DNA from: Candidatus Methanoperedens sp.
GTDB lineage: Archaea > Halobacteriota > Methanosarcinia > Methanosarcinales > Methanoperedenaceae
Length of the DNA stretch: 64,000 bases
Direction: 5' to 3'
Assembly (NCBI GenBank): GCA_012026835.1
Contig: VEPN01000001.1
Coordinates: forward strand, 62,001 to 126,000
How positions within the stretch are numbered: the first letter of the stretch is position 1; each line of letters starts with the position of its first letter. Below are positions 14,284 through 48,482 of the stretch, piece by piece. The position numbers and the translations under genes are program-made. The notes beneath the pieces were generated by a model. It was not told the DNA's origin, searched no databases, and saw only the letters and a program-made list of their open reading frames with translations.

Positions 14284-15417
14284 TCAATCCTTTTCGGCTC
14301 TCTCATGTATCAATGGTATAAAATACTTACTTAGAACAGGAGTAAGAATACCGCTTGGAACATCATACTTTTTGGGCTTATTCAGTCCGAGGATATTTAA
14401 AGCGATATCATAGTTGCTCTGGATTATCCTGCCCTTCTGGTTGAAAGGCTTCATTTTATCCAGCAGTGTGCTTAGGTCAATATCCCCGACTTTGATATCG
14501 AGTTGATGTAAAGTTTTATCATTTTTCAGGGCATCATAAATGAACGAATAATGCATAGGTGTACAGAATATCATAACAACCGCGTACTCCGACTGGGCGG
14601 TAAGAACCTTTAATCCTTCAAGGATGTTTGAGAACTTTATTTCATCCTCCCGGATCTTATAATCCAGGAATTTCTCGTATGCGGATATGAATTCCAGTGC
14701 CTTTTTCCTTAAATTTTTAACTATATAATTTCTGAGGTTGAATTTTAGCAATCCCTTGATGCGGATTATGAGTTCATTATAGAATTTTTCAGTTTCTTCA
14801 TAGGAAACGGCCATATGCCTTGCCTGCATGGAGCTGTACCATAGCTGTTTTGGCAATTCGCGGAATGATGTAATCTCATTGATAACCTCTGACATATTTA
14901 ATAAGAACTCGCCATCTTTATCAAGGATATTTTCATAGACAGGAATAAGCTCCTCCTTTGATTTAATATCCAGGCCATAAAAGATAACATTCAAAGGCAG
15001 GTGCTCTTTGCTCTCTATAAGTCTTATCTCTTTATCAATAATTCCTTTAATATAAATACAATAAATAGGATGAGAACTTTCCAGACCGGCTGATATTTGA
15101 TAATAATCCGACCAGAACTCAAGAGGTGAAATCAATCTTTTGTTGTATTTGTTCTCAAGCTGCGTAAAATCAACCGGCATGTCCAGGAAAACCGCTCCGG
15201 GATCGATAGCATCAAGCAAACGCATGATCTCGCTGTGCACCTCATCCACACTGGCAAGGGCGTGTTTTGAATTCTCAGGAAAGAACCTCTCAAGCTTGAA
15301 AGGGTACTCAAGATGGTTATGAAGGGCTGGTTCATCAAGCCTGTTGAGCCAGTCCCTGATAGCGACATCATGGACATCAAATAAACTTATAATGGGCATC
15401 AGGAATAGCTCTGGCAT
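14284..15417 (-). CDS. Unknown 377-residue cytoplasmic protein
   Basis: No recognised domain. The sequence is mixed alpha/beta: an N-terminal MPELFLMPIISLFDVHD resembles the strand-helix start of a TIM-barrel or Ppx-like fold, and VIFYGLDIKSKEELIPVYENILDKDG, VVMIFCTPMHYSF and a helical centre follow. No membrane segment or signal peptide is present. The ATG at 15417 is chosen; an in-frame TTG at 15438 immediately follows the stop of the upstream 80-residue gene, so coupling is possible. It is linked to an FKBP chaperone and a small unknown protein. No function can be assigned. Confidence 0.55.
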   Translation of the reverse strand: MPELFLMPIISLFDVHDVAIRDWLNRLDEPALHNHLEYPFKLERFFPENSKHALASVDEVHSEIMRLLDAIDPGAVFLDMPVDFTQLENKYNKRLISPLEFWSDYYQISAGLESSHPIYCIYIKGIIDKEIRLIESKEHLPLNVIFYGLDIKSKEELIPVYENILDKDGEFLLNMSEVINEITSFRELPKQLWYSSMQARHMAVSYEETEKFYNELIIRIKGLLKFNLRNYIVKNLRKKALEFISAYEKFLDYKIREDEIKFSNILEGLKVLTAQSEYAVVMIFCTPMHYSFIYDALKNDKTLHQLDIKVGDIDLSTLLDKMKPFNQKGRIIQSNYDIALNILGLNKPKKYDVPSGILTPVLSKYFIPLIHERAEKD

Positions 15418-15438
15418 CAATAAAAGATTGTCTTGCAA

Positions 15439-15681
15439 TTATAAGTCAGTGATGGTCATGCCTTTGTTGTCAAGAGCTTTTTGCAGGGCGGTTTTCAGCT
15501 CTTTCCTTATATCGACCTGGGCAGACTCGTCAAGATAAAGAAGACCTTCCTTTATTTTTGTCTTATCAGGAGAGGGTTTCTGGAGTTCGGATATGGCGTT
15601 GATCAAAACGCTGGTGTCCAGTTTCTGTGATGCGCCTGTTATCATTACAAAGGAATCGCCCTGTTTTTCCATTCTGACCAT
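15439..15681 (-). CDS. 80-residue protein of unknown function
   Basis: Small soluble protein starting at ATG 15681, with AAGGTGA 8 bases upstream. It has an N-terminal strand region (GDSFVMITGASQK) and a helical remainder rich in Lys/Leu, ending MTITDL. It is the first gene of a minus-strand unit with the 14284 gene and the FKBP isomerase. No family is recognised. Confidence 0.55.
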   Translation of the reverse strand: MVRMEKQGDSFVMITGASQKLDTSVLINAISELQKPSPDKTKIKEGLLYLDESAQVDIRKELKTALQKALDNKGMTITDL

Positions 15682-15797
15682 ATTTTCACCTTCACAGCTC
15701 TATGAGTCAATGCTACCGCATGGCTTATGTAATTTTTGTTAGCAAAAAAGAATTCGGGAAAGGGGAATCCCTCCCCGAACAACAATCCTTTACAGAT

Positions 15798-18700
15798 TTA
15801 TGGTGCGTTCAGCGGCCCGAAAACCGTCCACGCCGAATTACCCACAAGGTTGGTCGCCCTGACTCGATAATAATACGTTCTGGGACGTGCTGCATTCTGG
15901 CTGAAAGTTACTGTGCTTGGAGCCGGGACAATATTGGCGCCAACAGTAAACGAGGTCGCTCCATTGAAGTTGGGTTTAGTTGCTCTCTGTATCTGGAAAT
16001 TATTTTCGTTGTTAGCGTTGTCTGTCCATGTCAGAGTGATACTATCCTGCGCATTATTGCCAGGTATCCTGGCAGCAGTACCTGTCAAACCTGACGGGGC
16101 CGCCGGCGCCGCGAACAAAACTGTAGCCGTATTCGAGGGAAGCGACGAACCCAGGGTATTACTTACTGCTGTAACGTAGTAGTCGTATGTATTACCCGCC
16201 ACCAGTGCTGCTATCGCGTTGGTATTAGCAAAGGTCACTGTACCTCCAGTTGCTGTCCTTTGTGCTGCTGTTCTTGTAACCGTACCAATCTGGCTGAATG
16301 CCCCTCCATTGGTGGAGCGCCAGACTGCGAAGCGATTCTCATTGTTAGAACTGTCTGTCCATGTCAGCACGATCCTCAAAGGACCTCCGTTGATAGTCGC
16401 CTGCAGGTTAGTCGGAGCAACAACAGCCACGGGTGGTGTTGTTACTGTTGCCATGTCTGAAGGCGCTGAATCCGCGGACATTGTGGGGAAACCTGCTGTA
16501 TTAGTGTCCCCGACAACATTGGTGGCAAGTACCCTGTAATTGTAAGTTGTGTTAGATACAACTGTGTTATCGACATAGGTCATCAGGGCACCAGTCCCCG
16601 GTCCTGTTGTGGAGAGTACTGTCGCTAATGTAATCCAGGCACTTGCGCTGATATTTCTCTGGACGATGAAACCGGTTTCACTTATGGAGTTGTCCGTCCA
16701 GTTCACAGTCACCTGATTAACATTCAGCGTGGCACTCTGGATAATAGGTGCATCAGGCGCTACCGCCAATGAAACATCATGCATCATGTCCATTTCTTCA
16801 TGGCCCAGAAGGTGGCAATGATACACATACTCCCAGCCAAAGTTGACCACATTGTTCAGGACGGTGGCAGGATTTCCGCTAGCGTCCTTCCATCCCAAAG
16901 GTGGTGGTTTCAGAGGGAAATCCACAGGCATCGTCGGGTCAATAGGTCGAATGCTGTTGGGAACCTTGAAAGGCTGCGTTGGAGCGACCGGTCTTAATGC
17001 AATTATGGTATTCTGGAGAGGATTCACTCTGATTGTCTCTTTCCATCCAACTTCATTGAGATCGGCCTCCCTGATAGCATTGTCCCAGGCTACACGGTTG
17101 ATCAATTGAGCGTTGAACAGATGGACGTGAATTGTATGGGTGTCAACACCGTTGTGGGTGATCATCCATATCTGAGTCCCATCCCCCAGCGATCCAAGGG
17201 GAGTCCCGTAAACTGAGTCCTTGATTATCTCAACTGGCGGGGATAGGTACGGGAATGGTATGAAACCCGGTATCCCGGGTTGAGTAAGTCCCAGCATGGC
17301 GCTCATCCTTCCATCATCTACTGAATAAGTTTCGCTTGCCTCATCCTGAATGGCCTTTGCATTGAACTGGATTGTCATGGGTGTACCCAGAGCGGTCAGG
17401 AAGGTCTTTGATACATCATTGATTCCAACGAATTTATCGTTCGGATAAACCTTATCGTACGCTGTTTCATAAGCCTTTTGCTGTACTATGATCTCATCCT
17501 GGGATACTTCAAAGACACCTCTTTTTCCTGCAGTCTTGGCAAATACTGCCTGAAGCGCGCCCAGATCGTATGAAGCGGCTGGAGTAGTATCGTTTACCTT
17601 TATCTGCATGACGGTGCGGGTGTTTGGCCCGTAGCCTGCAAGTGTTGAAGGTGCGCCCCCAGTGTCCCTCAGGTCAGGATTTCCTGTATAGTAATCATAG
17701 CGTGGATCGATTGCCGGGAAAGGCGCAGGAGCATCATTATAGAGAATGATTGTCTTTCCGGCAAATGCCGAGAAGTCAACGATCACGTCTGCTCGTTCTG
17801 CTGTTCCCAGGATGAGCGTGCCCTTGTTCACAACTCCCATATCGAAGTTTGTCTGGTCCATATTCCAGTCCACTGGCTGATTGGGCAGCACTACTGGCTC
17901 AGGCAGGAATCCGCCTTCGGTTCCTATCTGGATGAACGATGGGCCTGCTGTGGCTGGATCAGGCACACCGCCTTCCCTTCCATCTGTTGGCCAGTCTGCC
18001 GGGAGGCCTGCGGTTGCAACAGCCGGGACCATCTTTACTTCGGTCAGGGTTCTACCGTCCTGTGTGGTGACTGCAGAATCAGCCACATACATCTGGAGGT
18101 TCAGGAACCGGTCATTACCTGCATTTAAGATGCGGAACCTGTAAGCCTTAGGCTCAACCGTGAGGTTGGGATAAGCTGCACCATTGACGATGGGTGTATC
18201 CATGAAAGCTTCCATAGCAAAAGATGGATTAGGCACATCCGGGATAACAGTGTGCTCCGTGGGCCATAAGCTTGCGCTGCAATTTTCACCCGGTGTTGGC
18301 AGGCAGTAGGGGTTCGGTATTGGACCATTGATAATATCGGTGGGGGCAGGGTAGAACCACGGACTATAAAACCAGCGGCCGAAAGCGTTCATTCCACTCG
18401 GATCACTTGGATTCTCGTTTGGCATGTAGACATGTGGAAGCCATAGATCTCCGGTATTTACGCCTGTAATTTTCCCGGTTATTGGGTCTCGTGGTCCGGT
18501 TCCCCAGTTCCAGGTAGGATCCTGCTGGGCGATCGTGTTAGCGTCCACGAATGTCTTATCCTGGATGATAAGGGGAATTCCGACATCCGGAAGTACCTTT
18601 GCACCTGTGGGATTGACACCTGAGATATTTGTGCCAGCGATCATATCTTGTTCTACCTGGTCTGTCAGCAGGTAACCTGCTGCCTCACCTGCATAGACAT

Positions 18701-20399
18701 TGAGACGTGTGATCCCAAATGAGTGATCGTGGTAAAACTGTAATCTCGCGCTTTGCTGGTTATTATAATAGAAGGTCAGCGATCCATTTCCAGGATTGTT
18801 CGTGGCCCCAGGAGTTCCAGCTGCCACAGGATTCCCGTTCGCATCATAGAACATATCTGGGACGTACTGGACGCTGACACCCTTCGGATAATCGGTTGTT
18901 TCCCCTGCAGGGGTGATCCACTGGTGGGGCGTGCCGTCGCTTATCCACGGGACAAAACCGCCGTGGAGATGCAGGGTGGCGCGGTTCTGAGTAAAATTGC
19001 CACTGATCGTGTTTCCAGGATTCGCAGGATCATCTATCATGAATGGTCCTGCTCCCATGATTGTCGTGTCCACGGGCAGGAAAAGGTCGCCGCCTGTACC
19101 AGTTGGAAGTTTATTTGTGAACTTAATGCGCACTGGTGTATCGCGCTTTGCGATGATCAGAGGACCAAGGTAATGGAACTTGCTTACATTCGGATCCACA
19201 GTATTGGTCTGCCTGTAACCGCGCAATGTGGTTGGCGGCAGGTCTGAATGCATTTGCTCGGTATATTGTCCAAGTTCAATCTCGTAGTAATCCGAGCCAG
19301 GATACGTTGTTGTATCTGGAATAGCTATGGGAATGTATTGTCCCAGATTGTTTGCCTGACCGGCATCCAAACCAGGAAGCGAATCAACGAATTTTCGTAT
19401 GCCGCCAGTCAATACCGTGGTGCTGACATTGACAGTAGCTGCTATTGCATAATTGCGGTCTTGTGAATATATTGGGAATCCTGGATTAACGCCAAGAGTA
19501 ATCGTGCTGCCATCGGCAGGCGGCGCTGGGGCGGGGTAGCTCAGGATGTCAGTTCCTGTACCCACATCAAGAGGAATACCCTGGCCGTAGAATCCGATCA
19601 CGTCACCTGCCAGGACATTAAATGGTCCGACAGGGAAAGTCGCAATTTCCGATATGCCAGGTGTAGATGGAGTTGTTACAGTAAGCAGACTGCTGTTAAA
19701 GACTATTTGATACTGGTTTGGAGTACCTGTGGGGCGCAACACATATGCATAGAATATATTTCCCGCAGATGGGAATGGACTTGATCCGGCCGTTGCCTGA
19801 TTCCATATCTGGAAATTCACAAGTGTGCCCTCTGGTAGAACTGCATTGGGAACTACTACTAATACAGGAGCAAGTTCACCTACTCCTACTGGATAGTCAC
19901 TTGCATACGCCCGGTCATTCAACTGGTTCCCGACTGTAGTTGAAGTTGTGACAGTTGTGAAAGTCGGCATCGGGCTGTTAGCGTAATTCGGGAAAGGGCC
20001 ATAATAATGTGGTAATCCCCCAGGGTCCATACCGGCGGGCAGGGCAGATATCCCTGCGGCTACAGATGCGCCAGCCTTTTTATAACGTTCTGCTGCAGCT
20101 TTTCTCTTAGCCGGGAGATCTCGTTTCTCTTTGAGACGCTCTGTTGCCTTTTTCTGATTATCTGCAACTGCTATTTTTTTCTGAGTATCAGGTGCATTTG
20201 CATTCGGATCCTTGCTGTCGACTACGCCGCTGTATGATGCATCGCTGACAGCACTTGCAGTACTGCCAACACTACTGTTCAACAACATTAATGAAAACAA
20301 TATTCCGGCAGTTAGCAATATTCCAATAAATCCAAGTCTGGTATGGATTGTTCTCCTTGCTTTGTATTCACCTTTAGCTGATTTATATCTTGACTTCAT
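15798..20399 (-). CDS. Giant exported multicopper oxidase with three fibronectin type III domains
   Basis: A 1533-residue secreted protein. Residues 24-44 form a signal/TM segment, and cupredoxin domains span roughly 370-1210. All copper-ligand motifs are present: HLHGG near 475, YHDHSFG near 555, THTIHVH near 1088 and HCHLLGHEEMDMM near 1198 (type 1 Cys, flanking His and axial Met). Three Fn3 repeats (each with VNWTDN/LTWTDS/LTWTDN) fill 1210-1533. It resembles CotA/bilirubin-oxidase-type enzymes that oxidise metals or phenolics and reduce O2. The region 50-370 is not recognised. ATG 20399 has ribosome-binding site GAAGGGA. No C-terminal anchor is visible. Confidence 0.85.
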   Translation of the reverse strand: MKSRYKSAKGEYKARRTIHTRLGFIGILLTAGILFSLMLLNSSVGSTASAVSDASYSGVVDSKDPNANAPDTQKKIAVADNQKKATERLKEKRDLPAKRKAAAERYKKAGASVAAGISALPAGMDPGGLPHYYGPFPNYANSPMPTFTTVTTSTTVGNQLNDRAYASDYPVGVGELAPVLVVVPNAVLPEGTLVNFQIWNQATAGSSPFPSAGNIFYAYVLRPTGTPNQYQIVFNSSLLTVTTPSTPGISEIATFPVGPFNVLAGDVIGFYGQGIPLDVGTGTDILSYPAPAPPADGSTITLGVNPGFPIYSQDRNYAIAATVNVSTTVLTGGIRKFVDSLPGLDAGQANNLGQYIPIAIPDTTTYPGSDYYEIELGQYTEQMHSDLPPTTLRGYRQTNTVDPNVSKFHYLGPLIIAKRDTPVRIKFTNKLPTGTGGDLFLPVDTTIMGAGPFMIDDPANPGNTISGNFTQNRATLHLHGGFVPWISDGTPHQWITPAGETTDYPKGVSVQYVPDMFYDANGNPVAAGTPGATNNPGNGSLTFYYNNQQSARLQFYHDHSFGITRLNVYAGEAAGYLLTDQVEQDMIAGTNISGVNPTGAKVLPDVGIPLIIQDKTFVDANTIAQQDPTWNWGTGPRDPITGKITGVNTGDLWLPHVYMPNENPSDPSGMNAFGRWFYSPWFYPAPTDIINGPIPNPYCLPTPGENCSASLWPTEHTVIPDVPNPSFAMEAFMDTPIVNGAAYPNLTVEPKAYRFRILNAGNDRFLNLQMYVADSAVTTQDGRTLTEVKMVPAVATAGLPADWPTDGREGGVPDPATAGPSFIQIGTEGGFLPEPVVLPNQPVDWNMDQTNFDMGVVNKGTLILGTAERADVIVDFSAFAGKTIILYNDAPAPFPAIDPRYDYYTGNPDLRDTGGAPSTLAGYGPNTRTVMQIKVNDTTPAASYDLGALQAVFAKTAGKRGVFEVSQDEIIVQQKAYETAYDKVYPNDKFVGINDVSKTFLTALGTPMTIQFNAKAIQDEASETYSVDDGRMSAMLGLTQPGIPGFIPFPYLSPPVEIIKDSVYGTPLGSLGDGTQIWMITHNGVDTHTIHVHLFNAQLINRVAWDNAIREADLNEVGWKETIRVNPLQNTIIALRPVAPTQPFKVPNSIRPIDPTMPVDFPLKPPPLGWKDASGNPATVLNNVVNFGWEYVYHCHLLGHEEMDMMHDVSLAVAPDAPIIQSATLNVNQVTVNWTDNSISETGFIVQRNISASAWITLATVLSTTGPGTGALMTYVDNTVVSNTTYNYRVLATNVVGDTNTAGFPTMSADSAPSDMATVTTPPVAVVAPTNLQATINGGPLRIVLTWTDSSNNENRFAVWRSTNGGAFSQIGTVTRTAAQRTATGGTVTFANTNAIAALVAGNTYDYYVTAVSNTLGSSLPSNTATVLFAAPAAPSGLTGTAARIPGNNAQDSITLTWTDNANNENNFQIQRATKPNFNGATSFTVGANIVPAPSTVTFSQNAARPRTYYYRVRATNLVGNSAWTVFGPLNAP

Positions 20400-20429
20400 A
20401 TCATATATCCCTTCTTTTTTCCTAATCAC

Positions 20430-20725: not shown

Positions 20726-22009
20726 TCATAATCCGAACTCCCCCAGCCCCTCCCTTGCCTGTTCCCTTTTTTCCTGATGCTCTTTCAGGAACTCCCTCAT
20801 AAGTTCGGCAGCATATTTCTTGCAGTTGCCGCACACCCGCGTTCCCCCAACGCAATCCTTATAGACCTCCATGAGCTTGTTATCATCCTCGACAAGGTGG
20901 AAAAGCAATAATTCGTACACTGAACATTTATCGGGTTCGCCTCCGAGTTTGCTCTGCTCCTCAAGTGTCACCCTCCCGCCCGTCTTTGCGCGCATCACTT
21001 TCTTTGCGCCCTCTTCAGGCTTGTCCGTAAGCGCGATATAGCTTTCAGGAATACTGCTTGACATCTTGCCGCCCTGCAAACCGGTCATGAACTTGTGGTA
21101 TGTAGAAGCAGGGGGAATGAAGGCATAGCCACCGTATTTTAATTCCGTTTCCCGAACAATGGATTCTACTTCATCAAAGCTTTGCTTGAAAACATCTACA
21201 TGTTCTTCGTAGAGCTTGCCCCCTGTTCGCTTTGCTATTTCAGAAAGCGCTTCTTTCGGGGCTGCTTTTCCGCGCACGCTTATGAATGCTTTTCCTGCGC
21301 TTTCCCGCTTCTCCACAATGAACATATTCACCTTGTAGGCAAGCCCCCTTGTAAGCCTGATATGCGGGTCCTGGTCTGCGCCCACTGGAATCACAACCGG
21401 CTTCGGGCCCCCAAATTCTTCAAGCTGGGGCTGTAGTATATCCGCGCTCTGCGTCAGCGCACTTACCATATGTGCAATATTTGTCTCGCCATTGAAACCG
21501 TATATGGCGCTGAGTTCTGAAAAATTGGCTTTGGTGCCAAGTTCGAAAGCAAGGTCTTTCACATTCCCCGACTTTGACTGGAAATAAATATGCGCCCCGG
21601 GCTTAAGACCGAGGGCTATGGCGCTCAGGATATATTCGTTTATCCCGAACTCCCTGCATTCCTTCCAGCTCTTGCCCCTTACTGCATGCGCCTCCATATC
21701 GGCGATTGCAAGGAACGCATCCCCGCCCTGCTGCTGGTGCCAGATTATCTCCTCCATCACCATCTTGTGGCCAAGGTGGGCCCGGCCTGAGGGCATGAAA
21801 CCGCTCATAGCAGCGAAGGGTTTGCCTGAAAGCATGGCAGAAAGCACGGATTCGTAGCTCCTGTGCCCGAAAATGACATGCCTTCGCATGTACCTGTGCG
21901 GATTTTTTATCTTCCCGAGAAGTTCATCGAACCTTGATATCCCGAATTCATCGAACAGCTTTGAGTAGTTATCTATTTTGACTGCGCCCCATGGGTCAAG
22001 TGTAGTCAT
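20726..22009 (-). CDS. trpS: Tryptophanyl-tRNA synthetase
   Basis: A 427-residue class Ic synthetase of the archaeal/eukaryotic type. The HIGH-like motif is SGRAHLGH (about 76-83) and the KMSKS loop is [11 protein letters not shown] (about 316-326); [12 protein letters not shown] and the adenine-binding region are also typical. It charges tRNA-Trp in the cytoplasm. The ATG at 22009 gives a standard N-terminal extension. It is a single gene followed by the multicopper oxidase promoter region, with a divergent F430 operon upstream. Confidence 0.95.
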
Positions 22010-28348: not shown

Positions 28349-31318
28349 ATGAAAAGAGAAGCTATAGCTGTCGGAATAGGAATATTTGTAATACTGCTGG
28401 CGCTGGCAGTAACCGGAAGCGCGCAGCCCGGATATGGGGGCACCTGTTCATTCTGTCATTCGGGATTTCCATCCCCGCTTACAGAAACAGGCGCTTATTT
28501 TAAGGAGATTCATAAGTTTAATGGCACTGCAGTACCGGCTACAACCGCAAGCTGCACTACATGCCATGTAAATCCGCCAACTACAAATCTGAATTTAACT
28601 TCTGTTGGTCAAAATTACAGCAACTCTCACAGGTACAATGAAACCATGCTTGCATCTGCTGGGCTTGCACAGCCTGCATGTTACAACTGCCATGTGGATG
28701 TTAATGAAAGTAATTTCGCCTTTCTAACAGGCACTCCAACTTATCTTAAATCTGGTTTCTGTGCGAACTGCCATAAAGAGAAGTATGATAACTGGACCGG
28801 CACAATGCACCGGGTTATGCTAACGGACAATACCACCGCCAAATTGATGGATCTTCCAACCCCTCCGGGTTTTAACTGGGAGAATATGACTTATGTAATA
28901 GTGGGCAAGCCGGAACTGAGATACTTGAACGGGTCAGGATATTTGTTCAAGAGCTACCTCGCAGAGAACCAGACATTTGCAGATCTTACGCCCAGACAGT
29001 ACACCTGTGGAGGCTGCCATACTACAGGTTACAACGCAAGTGGTAACCAGAGCGGATTACCAGGCATAGTAGGAACATGGAGCGAGCCGGGGATCGCCTG
29101 TGAAAGATGCCACGGGCCCGCAGGCAACGGGCACCAGGTAAAAGTTGATGTCTCAGAACAGCTATGCCTCCAGTGCCATAATGGATCAACAAGGCAGGGG
29201 ACCTGGATTTCAAGTGCGCATTCGCCTCCTCTTAAGGCACCAGCGAGTTGCCTGAGATGCCATTCGCCTTTCGATTATGCCAAGAACAGGACTGTAACAG
29301 GTGCGACAGCACTCAATGTGGTGTGTGCAAGCTGTCACGATTCTCACAATACATCTGATAACCAGTACAGGATGTTATTCTCTCCAGGCGGTTTCAACGC
29401 TTCTGCAATGGCGGAAGTAAAAGATGCAAAGAACAGCCTGTTTAATTCAAGTGCCAGCAGGGCGGCAGGTAAAGATATCTATGATACGCTTACTACGCCT
29501 GCGCTGATATACGACAGGGACGAAAGCTATCCCGGGCCAATCAATGTGACAGGTCCCATTTCGGAAGTGCTATGCTCTAAATGTCACTATGAACATGGGT
29601 TGGCCCACGTAGGTGGGGTCAATCTTACCCATGCCAGGCTTGTGTATCCATCATTGGGTCTGCCGCCAGCTACATGCACAGACTGCCACATGGCGGGTGT
29701 TCAGAAGAATCATTCCTTCAATGTAATGGATGAGAGAAATTTCCCATCCAGGACATGCTCCCGAGGCAATCAGTGCCACGTCACGAGCGACCAGAACCTG
29801 AATGAAAGTGCTCATTCAGTAGTACCTCAGGTAAGGGAATGGAAAGAGAGCGGCCATAATAATTCCGCATTTGGAATAGACCATAACAGGAGTTCCTGCG
29901 CAAGATGCCATTCTCCGATTAACTGGAATCCACTGAACTCGACAGAAATCATCGCACCTGAAGACTATAAAGGTGTTACCTGCGCCATATGCCATAATAT
30001 CCATGACATGGGCGACTGGCTGAAAAAGACAGGTAAGCCTTATGCATGGTACAACCGGGATGCATATAACCGGACAACCCATTTCAGGGCGAACTATACA
30101 ATGATGGCGACTACAACTGAACTATGCACCAATTGTCACCAGAACAGGCCAGAGTATTCAGTACCAGGCTGGGGATCTCGCGGGCCGCACGGTGCTGTAG
30201 TACCTCATGTCTCTACCCAGAAAGAGATGTTCAATGGATCGTTTAAGGATAGTTCCATGAAGTTCGAATGTGCTAACTGCCATATGTATAACAAGACAAC
30301 CGATCCGGCAAATACGACAGAGCCCGTACTGCCCGACAGCCAGAAAGTGACAGGGCATACATTCAGGATGAATGTATCCGGGCTCCAGGGCGAGACTGCA
30401 TGTTCAGGCTGCCATACAGGTGAAATGAACCTGAGCGGACTGATCGATAAAATCCAGGCGGAAACTAAGACAAAGTGGAACGCCACAAACGCGACGGTTG
30501 AAAATGCGTGGGCAACTTACAATGCCTTTACAGGCGAAAAGAACTCCAGTGGAAATATGCTTGCAGAAGCATACTTTAAACTCTATGAGGTCTCAAACGA
30601 CGGAAGCTGGGGCATACATAATCCGGCAAAGGCAAGGGAATTGCTCAATGACTCGTCACGGCTTGCAAATGAAGCAGTTTTAGCTCTCGGGCCGGCAGGA
30701 GCGGCAAGACCGAATATAACAAGCTTTGACCCGTCTTCCCTGACAGTGACTGACAATATCGGAGCCTCACGAACATTCAGCATTACAGCCAACCAGACAG
30801 TGAATGTAACATGGTATATCAATGGTACGATAGTACAGGACACCGATAAGAGCGTGACAGAAGCAAGTTATACGAACACAAGTGCAGCCCCTGGCACATG
30901 GAACGTAACTGCTGTTGCTCAGAATGCTAACGGCAGCGACATGCATAAATGGGACTGGATTGTGAAGAAGGAGGTTACAGCTGCCAGCATATCAGGATTC
31001 AAGGTTAAAGACTCCAACAGGAACGGAAAATGGGATGAAGGTGAGGTCGGTCTGCCAGGCTGGACAATAGAGATCAGGGGCATTGATGCAATGACCAGGC
31101 GCTTCAGCGAAGAAACCACCACTGATGATTCGGGCTTCTATGAGTTCAATGAACTTCCTGAAGGCAGGTATCTTGTTCAGGAAAAGAACATGCAAGGCTA
31201 CGTACCTTCCAGTTCGCCGGTCAGGATTGTAAACCTGAAAAAAGGTGAAAAATCAATGGACAATAACTTCACCAACTGGCTGGTGAAGGATTTAATAGAC
31301 GAACTATTGAGGAGATGA
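28349..31318 (+). CDS. Extracellular multihaem cytochrome c (16 CXXCH plus one CX5CH) with Ig-like and SdrD-B-like domains
   Basis: The 989-residue protein begins with a signal peptide (TM about 5-26). Sixteen CXXCH haem sites lie between residues 32 and 688, plus one irregular CSRGNQCH. An Ig/PKD-like segment follows (about 790-870; WYINGTIVQD), then an SdrD B-like domain (about 880-975; SGFKVKDSNRNGKWDEGE..GLPGW...DDSGFYEFNELPEGRYLV). N-glycosylation sequons (NXS/T) are abundant. Such proteins carry electrons across the cell wall in ANME-2d archaea to extracellular acceptors or partners. No C-terminal TM or sorting signal is seen, so it is probably released or S-layer-associated. The ribosome-binding site is AAAGGGGG. 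A terminator follows. Confidence 0.9.
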   Translation: MKREAIAVGIGIFVILLALAVTGSAQPGYGGTCSFCHSGFPSPLTETGAYFKEIHKFNGTAVPATTASCTTCHVNPPTTNLNLTSVGQNYSNSHRYNETMLASAGLAQPACYNCHVDVNESNFAFLTGTPTYLKSGFCANCHKEKYDNWTGTMHRVMLTDNTTAKLMDLPTPPGFNWENMTYVIVGKPELRYLNGSGYLFKSYLAENQTFADLTPRQYTCGGCHTTGYNASGNQSGLPGIVGTWSEPGIACERCHGPAGNGHQVKVDVSEQLCLQCHNGSTRQGTWISSAHSPPLKAPASCLRCHSPFDYAKNRTVTGATALNVVCASCHDSHNTSDNQYRMLFSPGGFNASAMAEVKDAKNSLFNSSASRAAGKDIYDTLTTPALIYDRDESYPGPINVTGPISEVLCSKCHYEHGLAHVGGVNLTHARLVYPSLGLPPATCTDCHMAGVQKNHSFNVMDERNFPSRTCSRGNQCHVTSDQNLNESAHSVVPQVREWKESGHNNSAFGIDHNRSSCARCHSPINWNPLNSTEIIAPEDYKGVTCAICHNIHDMGDWLKKTGKPYAWYNRDAYNRTTHFRANYTMMATTTELCTNCHQNRPEYSVPGWGSRGPHGAVVPHVSTQKEMFNGSFKDSSMKFECANCHMYNKTTDPANTTEPVLPDSQKVTGHTFRMNVSGLQGETACSGCHTGEMNLSGLIDKIQAETKTKWNATNATVENAWATYNAFTGEKNSSGNMLAEAYFKLYEVSNDGSWGIHNPAKARELLNDSSRLANEAVLALGPAGAARPNITSFDPSSLTVTDNIGASRTFSITANQTVNVTWYINGTIVQDTDKSVTEASYTNTSAAPGTWNVTAVAQNANGSDMHKWDWIVKKEVTAASISGFKVKDSNRNGKWDEGEVGLPGWTIEIRGIDAMTRRFSEETTTDDSGFYEFNELPEGRYLVQEKNMQGYVPSSSPVRIVNLKKGEKSMDNNFTNWLVKDLIDELLRR

Positions 31319-31969: not shown

Positions 31970-33178
31970 TTAATACAAATGTTTTATTGTACTTTTCGGC
32001 TTGCTCTCAGGAACTTCCTCTTCCATATCCTTCCATGGCGGAAGGATACGGGTTACAACTACCAGGATCACAAACGGGATCGCCAGTATTATAATTGCAG
32101 GCAGGACGCCTTCCTGGCTGAAGAAAACAGGCTCATATGTGAGGGTGCCGCTTAAGCTCTTGGATATTTCCTGCCCTCCGATTACCACATTCCAGCGCAT
32201 GGCGAACACGCCTATGACCACAAAAATGGAAGATACCGAGATCATGATCATTTTGAGGGTTTCACGGTTTTTCATGATACCAACCAGCAGGAGTAGTATG
32301 AACGGGATCAAGATACCCAGCGTCAGCTGCACGCCATAAAAAGTAAATGCGATTTTATCTGAGAGCAGCCTGTTAATTATCTCTATATCCTCAAGAGATT
32401 CATATTTCATGCTGACTATCTCAAGAAGTTCAAGTGCTACGTCCAGAATAAGGAAAATCCACAGATAGTGGGCCAGTGAATGGAGACATTTGTGATCGAT
32501 AGCACGTTTCCGGAGTTTCATCGATGCGATATACAACAGGATCAAAAGCGCTATGCCTGATACAATGGCAGACATCAGGAATATGAGGGGCATAAGAGGT
32601 GTGGACCACCAGGGATTGGCCTTGATCCCACCGAATATGAAGCCAACATAACCGTGCAGGAAAGCCGCTGACGGGATACCTATGATTGCAAGTTTTTTTG
32701 CAAGTTTCTCATCCTCATGAAGAGCTTTTTCTGAAATATCGTATGAAAAGAGGGCCAGCCCTGAATATAAGAGCTTTTTCCATCCCTGGGAGTTAAGGGC
32801 TGTTTTCACGATGTCCTCTCTGAATGACAACCATATCTCAAGCACTACTACGATCAGGTAGAATGAATAGATATAGCCGAATCCCGACATTGCAGATGTA
32901 AGATGCGGCGTGAACATGATCTCAATGCCCCTCTCAGGATGACCAAGATGCGTGAGCAGCGGCATCGTAGCAACAAGCAGGAAAGATAAAGCTGTAAGAA
33001 GAGCGAATCTTGCGACAGGTTTGATCTCCTTTTTGCCGAAAACATGATACAAAGATGATGCAATGAAAGCCCCTGCAACAAGCCCCGTAATATACGGATA
33101 TAAAACTATCAGGACACTCCACTGTATTTCGGCTTCGTTGGGATACACATATCCCCAGATTAAATTCTCTACCATCAT
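31970..33178 (-). CDS. NrfD/PsrC-type quinone-interacting membrane subunit
   Basis: A 402-residue polytopic protein with about ten TM segments and NrfD-family features: a long first loop, ASSLYHVFGKKE, LGHPERGIEIMFTPHLTSAMSGFGYIYSF, and the WWSTPLMPLIFLMSAIVSG block. NrfD proteins bind (mena)quinone or methanophenazine-type carriers and pass electrons to a partnered ferredoxin-like subunit. Its start overlaps the stop of the Fe-S subunit by four bases (ATGA). Together with the two cytochromes it makes a membrane electron-transfer complex, probably linking the quinone pool to haem proteins outside. Confidence 0.85.
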   Translation of the reverse strand: MMVENLIWGYVYPNEAEIQWSVLIVLYPYITGLVAGAFIASSLYHVFGKKEIKPVARFALLTALSFLLVATMPLLTHLGHPERGIEIMFTPHLTSAMSGFGYIYSFYLIVVVLEIWLSFREDIVKTALNSQGWKKLLYSGLALFSYDISEKALHEDEKLAKKLAIIGIPSAAFLHGYVGFIFGGIKANPWWSTPLMPLIFLMSAIVSGIALLILLYIASMKLRKRAIDHKCLHSLAHYLWIFLILDVALELLEIVSMKYESLEDIEIINRLLSDKIAFTFYGVQLTLGILIPFILLLLVGIMKNRETLKMIMISVSSIFVVIGVFAMRWNVVIGGQEISKSLSGTLTYEPVFFSQEGVLPAIIILAIPFVILVVVTRILPPWKDMEEEVPESKPKSTIKHLY

Positions 33179-33945
33179 CTCACTTCCCTGTCCAGACCTA
33201 CATAATATACCTTGGGTTTTGTTCCCAGGTCAGGCTTGAGTACATTGATTCTTTCTTTATCCAGAAGTTTATTGACATCACTGGCAGGGTCTTTCAGGTC
33301 CCCGAATACCCTTGCTCCAACCGGGCATGCCTGGACGCACGCAGGCAAAAGGCCTTTTGTTATCCTGTGGTAACACCAGGTACATTTATCTGCTGTCCCC
33401 TTTTCTTTATTGAAGTACCGAGCGCCATAAGGGCAGCCCTGGATGCAATATCTGCAACCGATACAGTAATCATAATCCACAAGAACTACGCCATCGTTTG
33501 TGGCATATGTGGCCCCTACGGGGCAGACCTGAACGCATGGGGGATTGTCACAATGATTGCATATTTTAGGTACATAAAATGCTTTCTTGAGTTCTTCTGC
33601 CGGGATGTCATCAGTAAAACCATCGATACTTCCATTGGGTGAATCTATTTTCACTTCTCCTTCTTTCAATACCCTGTACCTCTCGACCCATGTCCTGTAA
33701 ACAGGCTCATCAAAAGGAACATCATTCTCAAGTTTGCAGGCATTCGCGCACCTGCCACATCCGATACATTTGCGGGTATCAATGACGTATCCCCAGTAAT
33801 GTTCGTTCCAGTCATAATCTCCTGTGGAGGAAGGCTCTGCTGCAATACTGTTTGAAATAATGGATTCAACAATAGTAGCACCTGCCGCAGCCCCGATAAC
33901 GATTCTGCATCCGATTTTAGTGAATTCTCGCCTTGATATGTTCAT
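33175..33945 (-). CDS. Tat-exported ferredoxin-type subunit (NrfC/HybA-like, four [4Fe-4S])
   Basis: The 256-residue protein starts with a twin-arginine signal, SRREFTKIG at 4-12, followed by a hydrophobic stretch to about 35. Four cysteine groups follow: CIGCGRCANAC, CNHCDNPPCVQVCP, CIGCRYCIQGCP and CTWCYHRITKGLLPACVQACP. This matches the electron-transfer subunit paired with NrfD in Nrf, Psr and Qrc-type complexes. The Tat signal places it outside the cytoplasmic membrane. It sits between the 4-haem cytochrome and NrfD genes in one operon. Confidence 0.9.
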   Translation of the reverse strand: MNISRREFTKIGCRIVIGAAAGATIVESIISNSIAAEPSSTGDYDWNEHYWGYVIDTRKCIGCGRCANACKLENDVPFDEPVYRTWVERYRVLKEGEVKIDSPNGSIDGFTDDIPAEELKKAFYVPKICNHCDNPPCVQVCPVGATYATNDGVVLVDYDYCIGCRYCIQGCPYGARYFNKEKGTADKCTWCYHRITKGLLPACVQACPVGARVFGDLKDPASDVNKLLDKERINVLKPDLGTKPKVYYVGLDREVR

Positions 33946-33957
33946 TTTTCCTCCGGT

Positions 33958-34407
33958 CTATACAAACCACGGCTTATGCGGGTTATGGCAGTATGCGCAT
34001 TTCAGGTTTTCACCATGGGATTCCGGGTCTATCTGCGGAAAACTTGAAGGCCTGGCTACCATTTTATAGTGGCATTTGCCGCAGAATTCTCTTGAATCGT
34101 TTGCCGGTGACGGCATTATCCTTACGTTGCTGACATGTTTTTCAGACGGGCCATGGCAGGTCTCACAATTTACTGTTTTATGTCTTGAGTCAGCCCATAT
34201 CGAATAAAGTGTCTTATGACAATTTTCATCCCCGCAACTCTGTGAACCCGCGTATTCAACAGTAAAATTCCGGTTTTCATATACTGAATCCCCCCTGTAC
34301 GCACCATATTGCCCGTAAGAGTCGGGTACGACCAGGGATCTTATAAAAATAAAACCAACTATTACGACTCCTAATAAAAATATCGCTCTTTTCAAATGCG
34401 GCTGCAT
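33958..34407 (-). CDS. Membrane-anchored four-haem cytochrome c
   Basis: A 149-residue protein with an uncleaved-looking N-terminal TM helix (about 8-27) and four haem sites: CGDENCH (irregular CX4CH), CETCH, CGKCH and CAYCH. Nearby single histidines (ADSRHKT, SEKHVSN, DPESHGEN, NPHKPW) could act as distal ligands. The size resembles NapC/NrfH-like or NrfB-like electron shuttles. It starts 18 bases after the 6-haem cytochrome stop and precedes the Fe-S subunit by 13 bases. It probably relays electrons between the FeS/NrfD pair and the 6-haem protein. Confidence 0.85.
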   Translation of the reverse strand: MQPHLKRAIFLLGVVIVGFIFIRSLVVPDSYGQYGAYRGDSVYENRNFTVEYAGSQSCGDENCHKTLYSIWADSRHKTVNCETCHGPSEKHVSNVRIMPSPANDSREFCGKCHYKMVARPSSFPQIDPESHGENLKCAYCHNPHKPWFV

Positions 34408-34424
34408 GATTTTCTCACGTTATC

Positions 34425-35387
34425 CTATTTCTTTCTCACTACATACAATGCTGCATACGATGCTGCCAGCAATGATATTATCCCTGCTATGGCGATAAAT
34501 CCGGGTGTTGTCGGAACCTGTGTTTTAGTTGGAGGAGGGGTTGGTCCTACGATATCTTCCGCTTTTTTCACTTCCCTGTTGGCGCTGTCCAGTTCATCTT
34601 CGAAATGTGTAAGATTGAATTCATGCCACAGGACTGCCAGGTTGCCTACTGTTTTTAGTGCATTATCCGTGTGCTCCTGCGCCTGTGTTACATCAGTTCC
34701 GTTCTTTTTTGCCCAGAAGATATCCTGCCTTGTATTGTCAATATCAAATTTCAATTTATTAACTTTTCCAAGAAGATACTCGGCCTGGAGCGGTATATCG
34801 TATGGTGCAACCTTTTTATAGACTGAATGGCATGTACTGCAGAAATTCCTGAACTCTTCGGGATTAAGTACTGAGAAAATGTGAGGGGCATGGCAGGTGG
34901 TGCATGTCGGGGCAAGTTTCGATGCTTCAAGCTTCTTGTAATGTTTGCTGTTTTCAAAACTTGTAAGCTCATTCGGATGGCATGTACCGCATGTTTTCGG
35001 CACATTAGTATAATAAACAGGACTTGAAGGGTCGTTATTATTTATTATGCTTGCATGGGCTTTTTCCTTGGTTGCCTGGTTCGGGTCACCGCCATGACAT
35101 TTATCACATGTTATTCCTTTGATCCCATGGCCTGATTCAGACCACTGCTGGTAATTCGATGTTGCAAGCTGTCTTACCCTGTCTTCATGGCATTCAAGTG
35201 AGCAGCTTACATTTTTTTCAAGATGCCTCATTCTTATCTGGTTGAACTGCTTCTGGACCTCAAGAAAAGGAGATAATGTTTTATGACAATCGATACATGA
35301 GTTTTCAGCTACTGCCTGCGGGATAAAAAATAAGATAAACCCAATTAAAGCAAAAAATATAATACTACTAAACGTCTTCAATTTCAT
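34425..35387 (-). CDS. Six-haem cytochrome c with PGF-type C-terminal sorting signal
   Basis: The 320-residue protein has a signal peptide (about 7-27, ending QAVAEN) and five CXXCH sites (CIDCH, CDKCH, CGTCH, CTTCH, CSTCH) plus one CX3CH (CSLECH), all before residue 190. A helical, haem-free region follows (about 200-280). The end is a proline/threonine linker, then TPGF, a hydrophobic helix and RKK. That tripartite end matches PGF-CTERM signals processed by archaeosortase and lipid-anchored at the cell surface. It is the first gene of the cytochrome/FeS/NrfD operon. The haem count is read directly; anchoring is inferred. Confidence 0.85.
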   Translation of the reverse strand: MKLKTFSSIIFFALIGFILFFIPQAVAENSCIDCHKTLSPFLEVQKQFNQIRMRHLEKNVSCSLECHEDRVRQLATSNYQQWSESGHGIKGITCDKCHGGDPNQATKEKAHASIINNNDPSSPVYYTNVPKTCGTCHPNELTSFENSKHYKKLEASKLAPTCTTCHAPHIFSVLNPEEFRNFCSTCHSVYKKVAPYDIPLQAEYLLGKVNKLKFDIDNTRQDIFWAKKNGTDVTQAQEHTDNALKTVGNLAVLWHEFNLTHFEDELDSANREVKKAEDIVGPTPPPTKTQVPTTPGFIAIAGIISLLAASYAALYVVRKK

Positions 35388-47306: not shown

Positions 47307-48482
47307 CTACTCACTCTGAAGCGTGTGAGCTTCCCGCTTCATGGTGTCTATGTTTAGACTACTCAGTCGGGCTTGAATTCCCGTAGTTCCTACGGTACTT
47401 CTGCTTTCTATTACTATTGCTGATACGTGGTCTCTGCCCAATACCAAACCGCAACCAGGGCAGTTATGTATCCTCATTGAGAGTTTTTTTGGTACTGGAC
47501 AGCCGCATATACAGACTTGAGACGTTCCTTTTGGATTAACCAGTTCAACTACTTTTCCAGCGTATTCTGCTTTGGATTTTGTCAAACTGATCAACTGGTA
47601 CCATCCAGCATCCATGATACTCTTTGCAAGATGATGGTTTTGTACCATGTTCTGTATCTGCAAATTTTCAAACGCTATATGGTCATATGTATTGACCAGT
47701 GTTCGACTGGTCTTATGTGCAAAATCTTTTCTTTGGTTCCTGATTTTCCTATGAACTCTGGCAACAGTTGTTACCTGTTTCTTTCGGTTATTGCTTCGTT
47801 TCTGTTTCCTTGAAAGCCGTATCTGCTTTCTTGTTAATCTCTTTTCTGAGGCTCTCAGGAATTTTGGGGGTTTTATCTGTTCTCCGCTGCTCAAGGTGAG
47901 CAATGAGTTCAATCCCACATCAATGCCTGTCTTTGACACCACAGGCACTTTTCTAATCTCCCTGTCTATTTCAGTTGAAAGTATGACATACCATTGATCA
48001 ACATCCTTCTTGATGGTGCAGGTTTTGATTTTTCCTTCGATATCTCGATGCTGGACAATTTTGATATTTCCGATTTTGGAAAGATTGAGCTTTCCATTCT
48101 CAAGTTCAAAACCGCTTTGCGGATATGTGAATGAGTTATATCTGTTCCTGCCCTGGAATCTTGGATATCCAAAACCATTATAGAAATTCTTAAAACTCCG
48201 ATCTAATCTTTTAAGTGTGTTTTGTAATACCTGTGAATATACTTCTTTTTGCTCTGGTGTCTTGTTTTTGGCTAGTGAATTGGCTTGATCTTCATATGTT
48301 AGCCATTCAGGTTTACCCCAAGAAAAAACATCAAAATTTCTGCACAGATTGTTAAGCTCTGCTCGCCTTCTTCTTTCTGTTAATGAATTATTATAGAGAT
48401 ACCTGCAAGTGTTAAGTGTTCTGTTTAACTTAACCTCTTGATTCTTGTTAGGATATATCCTGAACGAAAAGGCTTTCTTCAT
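47307..48482 (-). CDS. tnpB: TnpB / IS605 OrfB RNA-guided nuclease
   Basis: A 391-residue TnpB. It has an N-terminal helix-turn-helix region (RIYPNKNQEVKLNRTLNTCRYLYN), the RuvC-I Asp in TGIDVGLNSLLTL (near 188), the RuvC-II Glu in IAFENLQIQNM, a zinc ribbon CICGC...CPGCG near 327-348, and the final Asp in LGRDHVSAIVI (usual DRDLNAA). TnpB proteins are transposon-encoded nucleases guided by an RNA from the element's 3' end. All catalytic acids are present, so activity is possible. It overlaps tnpA by four bases. Confidence 0.88.
   Translation of the reverse strand: MKKAFSFRIYPNKNQEVKLNRTLNTCRYLYNNSLTERRRRAELNNLCRNFDVFSWGKPEWLTYEDQANSLAKNKTPEQKEVYSQVLQNTLKRLDRSFKNFYNGFGYPRFQGRNRYNSFTYPQSGFELENGKLNLSKIGNIKIVQHRDIEGKIKTCTIKKDVDQWYVILSTEIDREIRKVPVVSKTGIDVGLNSLLTLSSGEQIKPPKFLRASEKRLTRKQIRLSRKQKRSNNRKKQVTTVARVHRKIRNQRKDFAHKTSRTLVNTYDHIAFENLQIQNMVQNHHLAKSIMDAGWYQLISLTKSKAEYAGKVVELVNPKGTSQVCICGCPVPKKLSMRIHNCPGCGLVLGRDHVSAIVIESRSTVGTTGIQARLSSLNIDTMKREAHTLQSE

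Follow-up and report, generated by a model that had tools for sequence, protein, structure and literature searches.

A giant multicopper oxidase of Candidatus Methanoperedens with a complete copper site, and signs of enzyme swapping at its locus

We analyzed a stretch of 64,000 nucleotides (the window) from Candidatus Methanoperedens sp. (GCA_012026835.1, contig VEPN01000001.1, positions 62,001 to 126,000 of the forward strand), and we found that it carries an intact gene for a very large multicopper oxidase (MCO) with a core of the CotA type. The copper ligands of this protein are complete, and ten histidines and one cysteine are the same in every aligned member of a widespread family of giant MCOs. 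Furthermore, comparison with related genomes suggests that the mature enzyme was replaced in place at this locus, behind a resident promoter and leader. For the function, we consider the chances about even that the protein is an exported four-copper oxidase, which would oxidize metals or organics with traces of O2. An earlier prediction, made by a model from the letters of the DNA (the original prediction), had spoken of an anaerobic archaeon, and the genome shares its genus with Ca. Methanoperedens sp. BLZ2. Genome G017 of this genus was recognized as BLZ2 because its best-match coordinates (C42:81324-83996) coincide with those of G085, the BLZ2 record, whose MCO copy is locus L061 (7950-12932). 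The window is part of a 140.6-kb contig in a genome of 3.32 Mb, rated 99.8% complete.

Copper sites and their conservation

All ligands were found in the window protein, namely ten His, one Cys, and the axial Met, which are distributed over four motifs (Table 1; numbering starts at the ATG). In an alignment of 114 members (the window protein and 113 relatives), the ten His and the Cys were identical in 114/114. The equivalents of CotA D116 (D488) and E498 (E1201), which adjoin the trinuclear site of CotA according to PDB titles, were also identical in 114/114, and the axial residue was Met in 108 members, Phe in 4, Ala in 1, and Leu in 1; at E1201 and the axial Met this conservation is partly due to the way the loci were selected, because one of the scan motifs lay over them. 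The genome-scan motifs left out the other ligands and D488; those of the viral scan, which supplied 2 rows, overlap with D488 and the HDH motif. In addition, the Geobacteraceae rows entered the alignment without a motif filter. The original prediction had described all copper ligands as intact, and the alignment bears this out, with none of the eleven His and Cys lost in any member. An unchanged trinuclear site, together with the acidic residues beside it, speaks for a working four-copper chemistry.

These data also bear on the idea that the protein chiefly serves adhesion or the surface layer and that its enzyme core is vestigial. Its Fn3 and jelly-roll modules, its very large size, and the variable beta-repeats inserted in relatives would fit such a role. 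However, a vestigial core would be expected to lose ligands, which the family has kept throughout. Two further Methanoperedens copies, which are outside the strict pattern and the count of 114, retain HCH...H as well and differ at the axial position, where the residue is not Met. Thus, we regard this explanation as quite unlikely.

Fold and domain anatomy

By fold and by sequence comparison, CotA is the nearest known relative. A sequence search of the PDB matched CotA 1gsk (E 1.4e-31), and Pfam reported Cu-oxidase_2 (E 2.4e-7) and fn3 (E 2.2e-5), both of which reach or exceed the curated cut-off. A structure model of residues 121-1308 was made with 35 sequences (mean predicted local distance difference test, pLDDT, 75.5; predicted template modelling score, pTM, 0.74). 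It has the three-cupredoxin fold, and 472/502 residues were aligned with 1gsk at 2.8 A (Z 26.0). The window protein shares this fold, the copper ligands, the axial Met, and the D116 and E498 equivalents with the CotA laccase/bacterial bilirubin oxidase of Bacillus (PDB 1gsk, 7z5p). However, its core has about 380 loop residues more than CotA, and it adds an N-terminal jelly-roll insert and three Fn3 repeats. The length beyond CotA sits in insertions of the model, many of them with low confidence. In addition, CotA is a spore-coat protein, whereas the window protein is predicted to be exported by a leader and belongs to an anaerobe.

Among the curated NCBIfam models, the best match was phenoxazinone synthase/o-aminophenol oxidase PhsA (E 6.1e-32), which has the same fold (Z 22.7). 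Identity with PhsA was rejected, as the score for NF045554 was 110.9 bits against a cut-off of 950, and the score for CueO (NF008205) was 46.4 bits against 525. The window genome also encodes MCOs of about 650 amino acids (G000:C30 and G000:C75), which have the MCO copper motifs and 41-49% identity in the most conserved blocks. They differ in a twin-arginine-like RRTF leader (by eye) and in being less than half the size, and they form a separate group.

The leader of the window protein has a single hydrophobic segment at about residues 22-43, which is the strongest of the protein by hydropathy. A similar leader is found in Methanoperedens copies from other core clades, and the linker after it closes with a conserved PHYYGPFPNYANSP-type block. 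The beta-sandwich insert that follows shows 67% identity to the Anaerolineae locus L070 and is also found in bacterial family members, and it is not present in the nearest orthologs (G017 and G021). The window copy of the insert had no match in Pfam, and Foldseek gave none at E <= 0.001. VIA-align compared it best with a phage capsid protein (Z 10.1) and further with lectin-like, polymer- or sugar-esterase-associated domains (Z 8.5-9.7), all too weak to name it. At the C-terminal end, three segments match one another at E 1e-6 to 1e-7 (Pfam counts two fn3 stretches), and these repeats are closest to the deltaproteobacterial copy L059 (57% identity). Both the Fn3 and the jelly-roll modules are of kinds that bind surfaces, and the leader together with these modules would put the enzyme outside the cell.

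The very large exported MCO of the original prediction, with three Fn3 domains, was recovered, and we found that it has a hydrophobic leader and a CotA-type core. Its size was given as "1.5-kb-residue" and should be 1,533 residues. The N-terminal region that had been called unassigned can now be divided into the leader, the conserved linker, and the beta-sandwich insert.

Meanwhile, we observed that in many relatives (L041-L045, L047, L227) short beta-repeats of G-S-G-Y type are inserted as arrays, both ahead of the oxidase core and within it. At the corresponding positions the window protein carries either its jelly-roll insert or no extra sequence.

Size and spread of the family

We scanned one genome per species for 84,980 species and obtained 536 confirmed relative-coding stretches, of which the best 80 loci were kept. 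The identity of their core to that of the window protein was 52-78% over aligned positions. Among these best 80 of 536, the family was found in Chloroflexota, Desulfobacterota, Geobacteraceae, Bacillota, Actinomycetota, methanogens, and Bathyarchaeota. The bacterial titles include Chloroflexi/Anaerolineae, Desulfobacteraceae, Desulfobulbus, Syntrophobacteraceae, Geomonas, Aminicenantes, Coriobacteria, Paenibacillus, Bacillus, Neobacillus, Ornithinimicrobium, and Pseudosporangium, and the archaeal ones Methanomicrobiales, Methanoregula, Methanomassiliicoccales, and Bathyarchaeota; many of these relatives are metagenome bins, and single taxonomic assignments may be wrong. We take Paenibacillus, Neobacillus, and Ornithinimicrobium to be aerobic or facultative lineages. 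By these matches, the giant MCO family is common in anaerobic lineages. The original prediction had regarded an MCO as unexpected in a strict anaerobe. This view could not be upheld, because the family is common there and a Geobacter multicopper protein is already described in the available parts of PMC5566968 and PMC3495685. Thus, the surprise is smaller than first thought.

The results of species distribution also showed that the giant MCO gene is patchy and, judging from the matches, not inherited throughout the lineage. In the genus, 10/30 other genomes match at 400 bits or more, and matches at 400 bits were found in 0/3 sampled genomes of the same family and 0/46 of the same order. In a broader phylum sample, 6/392 genomes, including its own, match at E <= 1e-60. 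Some MCO match (E <= 0.001) is present in 31/48 genomes of the Geomonas family, and the giants of Geobacteraceae mostly show 45-68% identity to the window protein in matched stretches. A plasmid origin was rejected, since the 48 matching plasmid records all have <60% identity and none extends over 80% of the query. Two IMG/VR contigs that are listed as viral (L139 and L140) encode distant relatives of 1737 and 1646 codons, and they are the most distant rows of the alignment (51.5 and 51.9% identity).

Phylogeny and enzyme swapping at the locus

The phylogenetic tree was built by a quick method from 90 rows and 817 columns. The window gene, G017, and G021 fell into a starred 10-row set with Chloroflexota, Aminicenantota, and one Methanomicrobiales row. 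Meanwhile, the other Methanoperedens copies (G007; G019, G002, G011, G023, and G018b) fell into a separate 15-row set with support 100. A single Methanoperedens clade was rejected (approximately unbiased test, p-AU 1.6e-37), and paralogues and hidden losses could yield the same result. In addition, the modules of the window protein differ in affinity, the insert being nearest to an Anaerolineae copy and the C-terminal repeats to a deltaproteobacterial one. The Methanoperedens lineage seems to have acquired and swapped such MCO genes more than once.

The site itself was compared in 20 fetched genomes. In a close species (G011), the DNA between 22046 and 20260 was 83% identical; this part takes in the upstream gene, the intergenic region, and the leader (the first ~46 codons of the MCO gene). 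From 15779 to 13001, the identity was 90.6%. The enzyme bodies of the window and G011 gave patchy matches of 65-70% only and belong to different tree clades. The site is without an MCO in G012 and G007, where only ~60 unmatched bases separate the upstream gene from the downstream pair. The downstream pair was found at the site in 4/20 genomes, two of which (G016 and G030) have larger gaps, and it was not seen in 16/20 within the stretch taken. Furthermore, the leaders of the other Methanoperedens copies are, by eye, closer to each other than to those of bacterial relatives. The simplest reading of these alignments is an insertion or loss at the site, together with replacement of the mature enzyme behind the resident promoter and leader, the breakpoints of which would lie near 20260 and 15785. 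What appears to be new is that the Methanoperedens copies do not form one clade and that this locus is a clear case of an in-place enzyme swap.

A review mentions multicopper oxidase domains in ANME-2d (available part of PMC5244752). Our literature searches, which did not cover supplements, found no description of a giant MCO in Methanoperedens. A term check with the same limit found no multicopper enzyme in two Methanoperedens papers (PMC7082337 and PMC9039326) and only arsenite oxidase and sample-site copper in a third (PMC7327174).

As an observation in its own right, a second large MCO lies after the giant MCO in G017, which is Ca. Methanoperedens BLZ2 (L039, 6806-16082), and in G021 (L040, 5918-15227). 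It has 1271 and 1276 codons, respectively, and is of another type, and its C-terminal end closely resembles that of the first MCO.

Possible function

The original prediction had named metal oxidation, oxygen defence, or an alternative acceptor as possible roles, and each of them is compatible with our results. The natural acceptor of a trinuclear copper site is O2. In the reading that we favour, a small reductant at the surface of the cell, which might be Fe(II), Mn(II), Cu(I), or phenolic or humic matter, would give up electrons one by one to the type 1 copper. The electrons would then pass to the trinuclear site and reduce O2 to water whenever the cell meets traces of it. As a result, O2 would be removed, oxide would form beside the cell, or both, and the binding modules may anchor the enzyme within the surface layer or on a mineral. 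Several results are in favour of this. The ligands and the D116 and E498 equivalents are invariant in the family, and the predicted fold is CotA-like. The family also occurs in aerobic or facultative lineages, where O2 chemistry is plain. A large catalase gene (745-codon frame, G000:C1:41539-42696) is on the same contig, ~19 kb outside the window, and the MCO gene is a self-contained unit with its own terminator-like stem. Furthermore, in the available part of a soil metatranscriptome study (PMC6199725), the genes that differed between slow and fast O2 pulses included multicopper genes from Fe(III) reducers. That the gene is patchily distributed and was swapped in place suggests a role which is helpful, though dispensable, in niches at oxic-anoxic edges.

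Nevertheless, other results weigh against an O2-dependent role. Catalase is not associated with the MCO in the genus (5/11 carriers, 6/20 non-carriers). Cytochrome bd is absent in 31/31 genus genomes, and thus nothing hints at a lifestyle that depends on O2 in general. Next to the MCO gene, we recognized neither a copper chaperone nor a redox partner. In addition, 82 loci came through short-motif scans, and the motif over E1201 and the axial Met weakens the argument from conservation at these residues. Finally, OmpB of Geobacter is the closest analogue that has a name, and published genetics tie it to anaerobic reduction of Fe(III) oxide, which by analogy may point to another function.

An MCO in an anaerobe is already known, with OmpB as the published precedent. 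The original OmpB abstract reportedly presented an MCO-like protein in an anaerobe as the first. In the available parts of PMC5566968 and PMC3495685, a multicopper protein of Geobacter sulfurreducens is needed for Fe(III)-oxide reduction, and PMC5566968 describes OmpB as a surface multicopper protein with an Fn3 domain and the FKBP-type isomerase MofB as adjoining MofA of Leptothrix. The window protein shares the Fn3 domain with OmpB; OmpB/OmpC and MofA were compared by published description only. Several bacterial relatives (L193, L197, and L065) are likewise next to an FKBP-type isomerase (FKBP_N + FKBP_C). However, no FKBP_N-type isomerase, cytochrome, or SCO1 was recognized beside the archaeal gene, and an FKBP26-type protein three genes downstream of the window MCO was rejected as MofB because it has no FKBP_N domain. 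No locus could be named as OmpB or MofA in the Geomonas family (48 genomes) or in the class of the Beggiatoa record (369 genomes, 4 of which match at E <= 1e-60). Geobacteraceae have two MCO size classes, both beside an FKBP-like gene, and Pfam found fn3 in none of the 4/4 shorter MCOs and none in 3/4 giants scanned. Thus, fn3 does not settle which class is OmpB.

The window protein may be a surface multicopper protein like OmpB, needed for passing electrons under anoxia to insoluble Fe(III)/Mn(IV) oxides; it would conduct them through its copper or bind the mineral. The ompB homologs rise on ferrihydrite or an electrode and in some cocultures (available parts of PMC6013743 and PMC10989804), and close relatives of the window protein, likewise giants, are present in Geobacteraceae. 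As the window genome has no narG-model match at E 1e-100, it is plausible that an acceptor other than nitrate is used. However, the Fe(III)-binding motif EXXE occurs once in the window protein and is not beyond chance (shuffle mean 0.9; 59% of shuffles have as many), and just 3/82 relative loci have, within 6 kb, a gene whose product contains at least three haem motifs. Moreover, methanogens and aerobes also carry the family, and an oxidase-type copper site would be odd for a reductive path. We consider this role possible and the main rival, and we rank O2-dependent surface oxidation ahead of it.

The trinuclear site might also use another oxidant in vivo, such as nitrous oxide, like McoP of Pyrobaculum aerophilum. 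According to its title, the McoP paper (cited in the available part of PMC11111587) reports that an archaeal MCO has nitrous oxide reductase activity, and nitrate respiration is described for related archaea of the genus. However, narG-model matches were found in just 2/31 genus genomes, the window genome not among them (one model, E 1e-100, which could miss divergent forms), and no denitrification gene was recognized beside the MCO in the list of open reading frames (ORFs). It is very unlikely that this is the function.

There is also a broader proposal, in which anaerobes would keep widespread giant surface MCOs ligand-complete for a purpose other than O2. This might be extracellular Mn/Fe oxidation or cycling under anoxia, or a copper conduit to minerals, and archaea would pass the enzyme body among themselves, swapping it in where promoter and leader are already resident. 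We think this unlikely as a whole.

Gene structure and neighbourhood

The coordinates of the gene and its features are listed in Table 1. The reading frame is uninterrupted, with a match in its own genome without stops, and an alternative start (GTG at 20429) would give 1543 codons. The gene starts ~300 bases after the synthetase-like gene. Six terminator-like sites were found against 4.2 expected in shuffles, and the stem after the MCO gene is the longest listed. Since this stem-loop with its T-rich tail follows the MCO stop, the gene is most likely a one-gene transcription unit. No copper or redox operon was recognized around it, the flanks being conserved genes without a Pfam copper/redox match.

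Table 1. Features of the giant MCO gene and its flanks in the window
Feature	Position	Strand	Basis or remark
Giant MCO gene	15798..20399	minus	1533 codons from ATG at 20399, stop at 15798
Hydrophobic export leader/membrane anchor (predicted), residues 22-45	20265..20336	minus	hydropathy maximum
N-terminal beta-sandwich (jelly-roll-like) insert, residues 144-331	19407..19970	minus	AlphaFold pLDDT 93.7, predicted alone
CotA-type MCO core, residues 332-1215	16755..19406	minus	sequence and structure comparison
Three Fn3-like repeats, residues 1216-1533	15801..16754	minus	Pfam and self-comparison
Copper motif 1, HLH (H477, H479)	18963..18971	minus	ligand mapping
Copper motif 2, HDH (H557, H559)	18723..18731	minus	ligand mapping
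Copper motif 3, HTIHVH (H1088, H1091, H1093)	17121..17138	minus	ligand mapping
Copper motif 4, HCHLLGHEEMDM (H1194, C1195, H1196, H1200, axial M1205; E1201 = CotA E498)	16785..16820	minus	ligand mapping
Stem-loop, 12 pairs, T-rich tail	15752..15780	minus	directly past MCO stop; probable terminator
Conserved upstream neighbour, tryptophanyl-tRNA synthetase by reading	20726..22009	minus	marks insertion site
Two conserved downstream genes, 80 and 384 codons, no Pfam match	14284..15681	minus	flank comparison

Around the relatives, the recurrent neighbours within 6 kb of 82 loci were a sensor/regulator (29), parts of an ATP-binding cassette (ABC) transporter (9 and 8), a di-haem CCP/MauG protein (7), and an FKBP (4). 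These were named by Pfam on one example each, except for the ABC parts, which were named by eye. In several methanogens and actinobacteria, this ABC transporter is encoded close to the MCO copy, along with a small membrane protein (for example L229, 635-4296), and it may be involved in copper or lipoprotein handling.

Other features of the window were observed as well. Neighbouring ORFs look, by reading, like F430-cofactor genes. A 989-codon ORF (28349-31318, plus strand), ~8 kb from the MCO and outside its transcription unit, encodes a large multihaem cytochrome with many CXXCH motifs and a C-terminal surface-protein-like domain (by eye). At 31970-35387 (minus strand), an NrfD-type membrane protein, a ferredoxin-type iron-sulfur subunit, and two small multihaem cytochromes (by eye) may form a quinol-cytochrome redox module. 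In addition, an ORF like the IS605-type transposon gene TnpB/OrfB (47307-48482, by eye) adjoins a stretch of low GC content.

Implications

The results most worth keeping are the complete and invariant copper site across the family and the in-place enzyme swapping at the locus. If these enzymes use traces of O2, they would be a surface defence or a metal-oxidizing tool common to methane-oxidizing archaea, methanogens, and metal reducers. If they do not use O2, complete trinuclear copper sites would be kept for some anaerobic reaction. This question is directly testable, since Geomonas isolates carry the same kind of gene. Furthermore, this locus, where the leader stayed in place and the enzyme body was exchanged, is a clear example of modular gene exchange in uncultured archaea.
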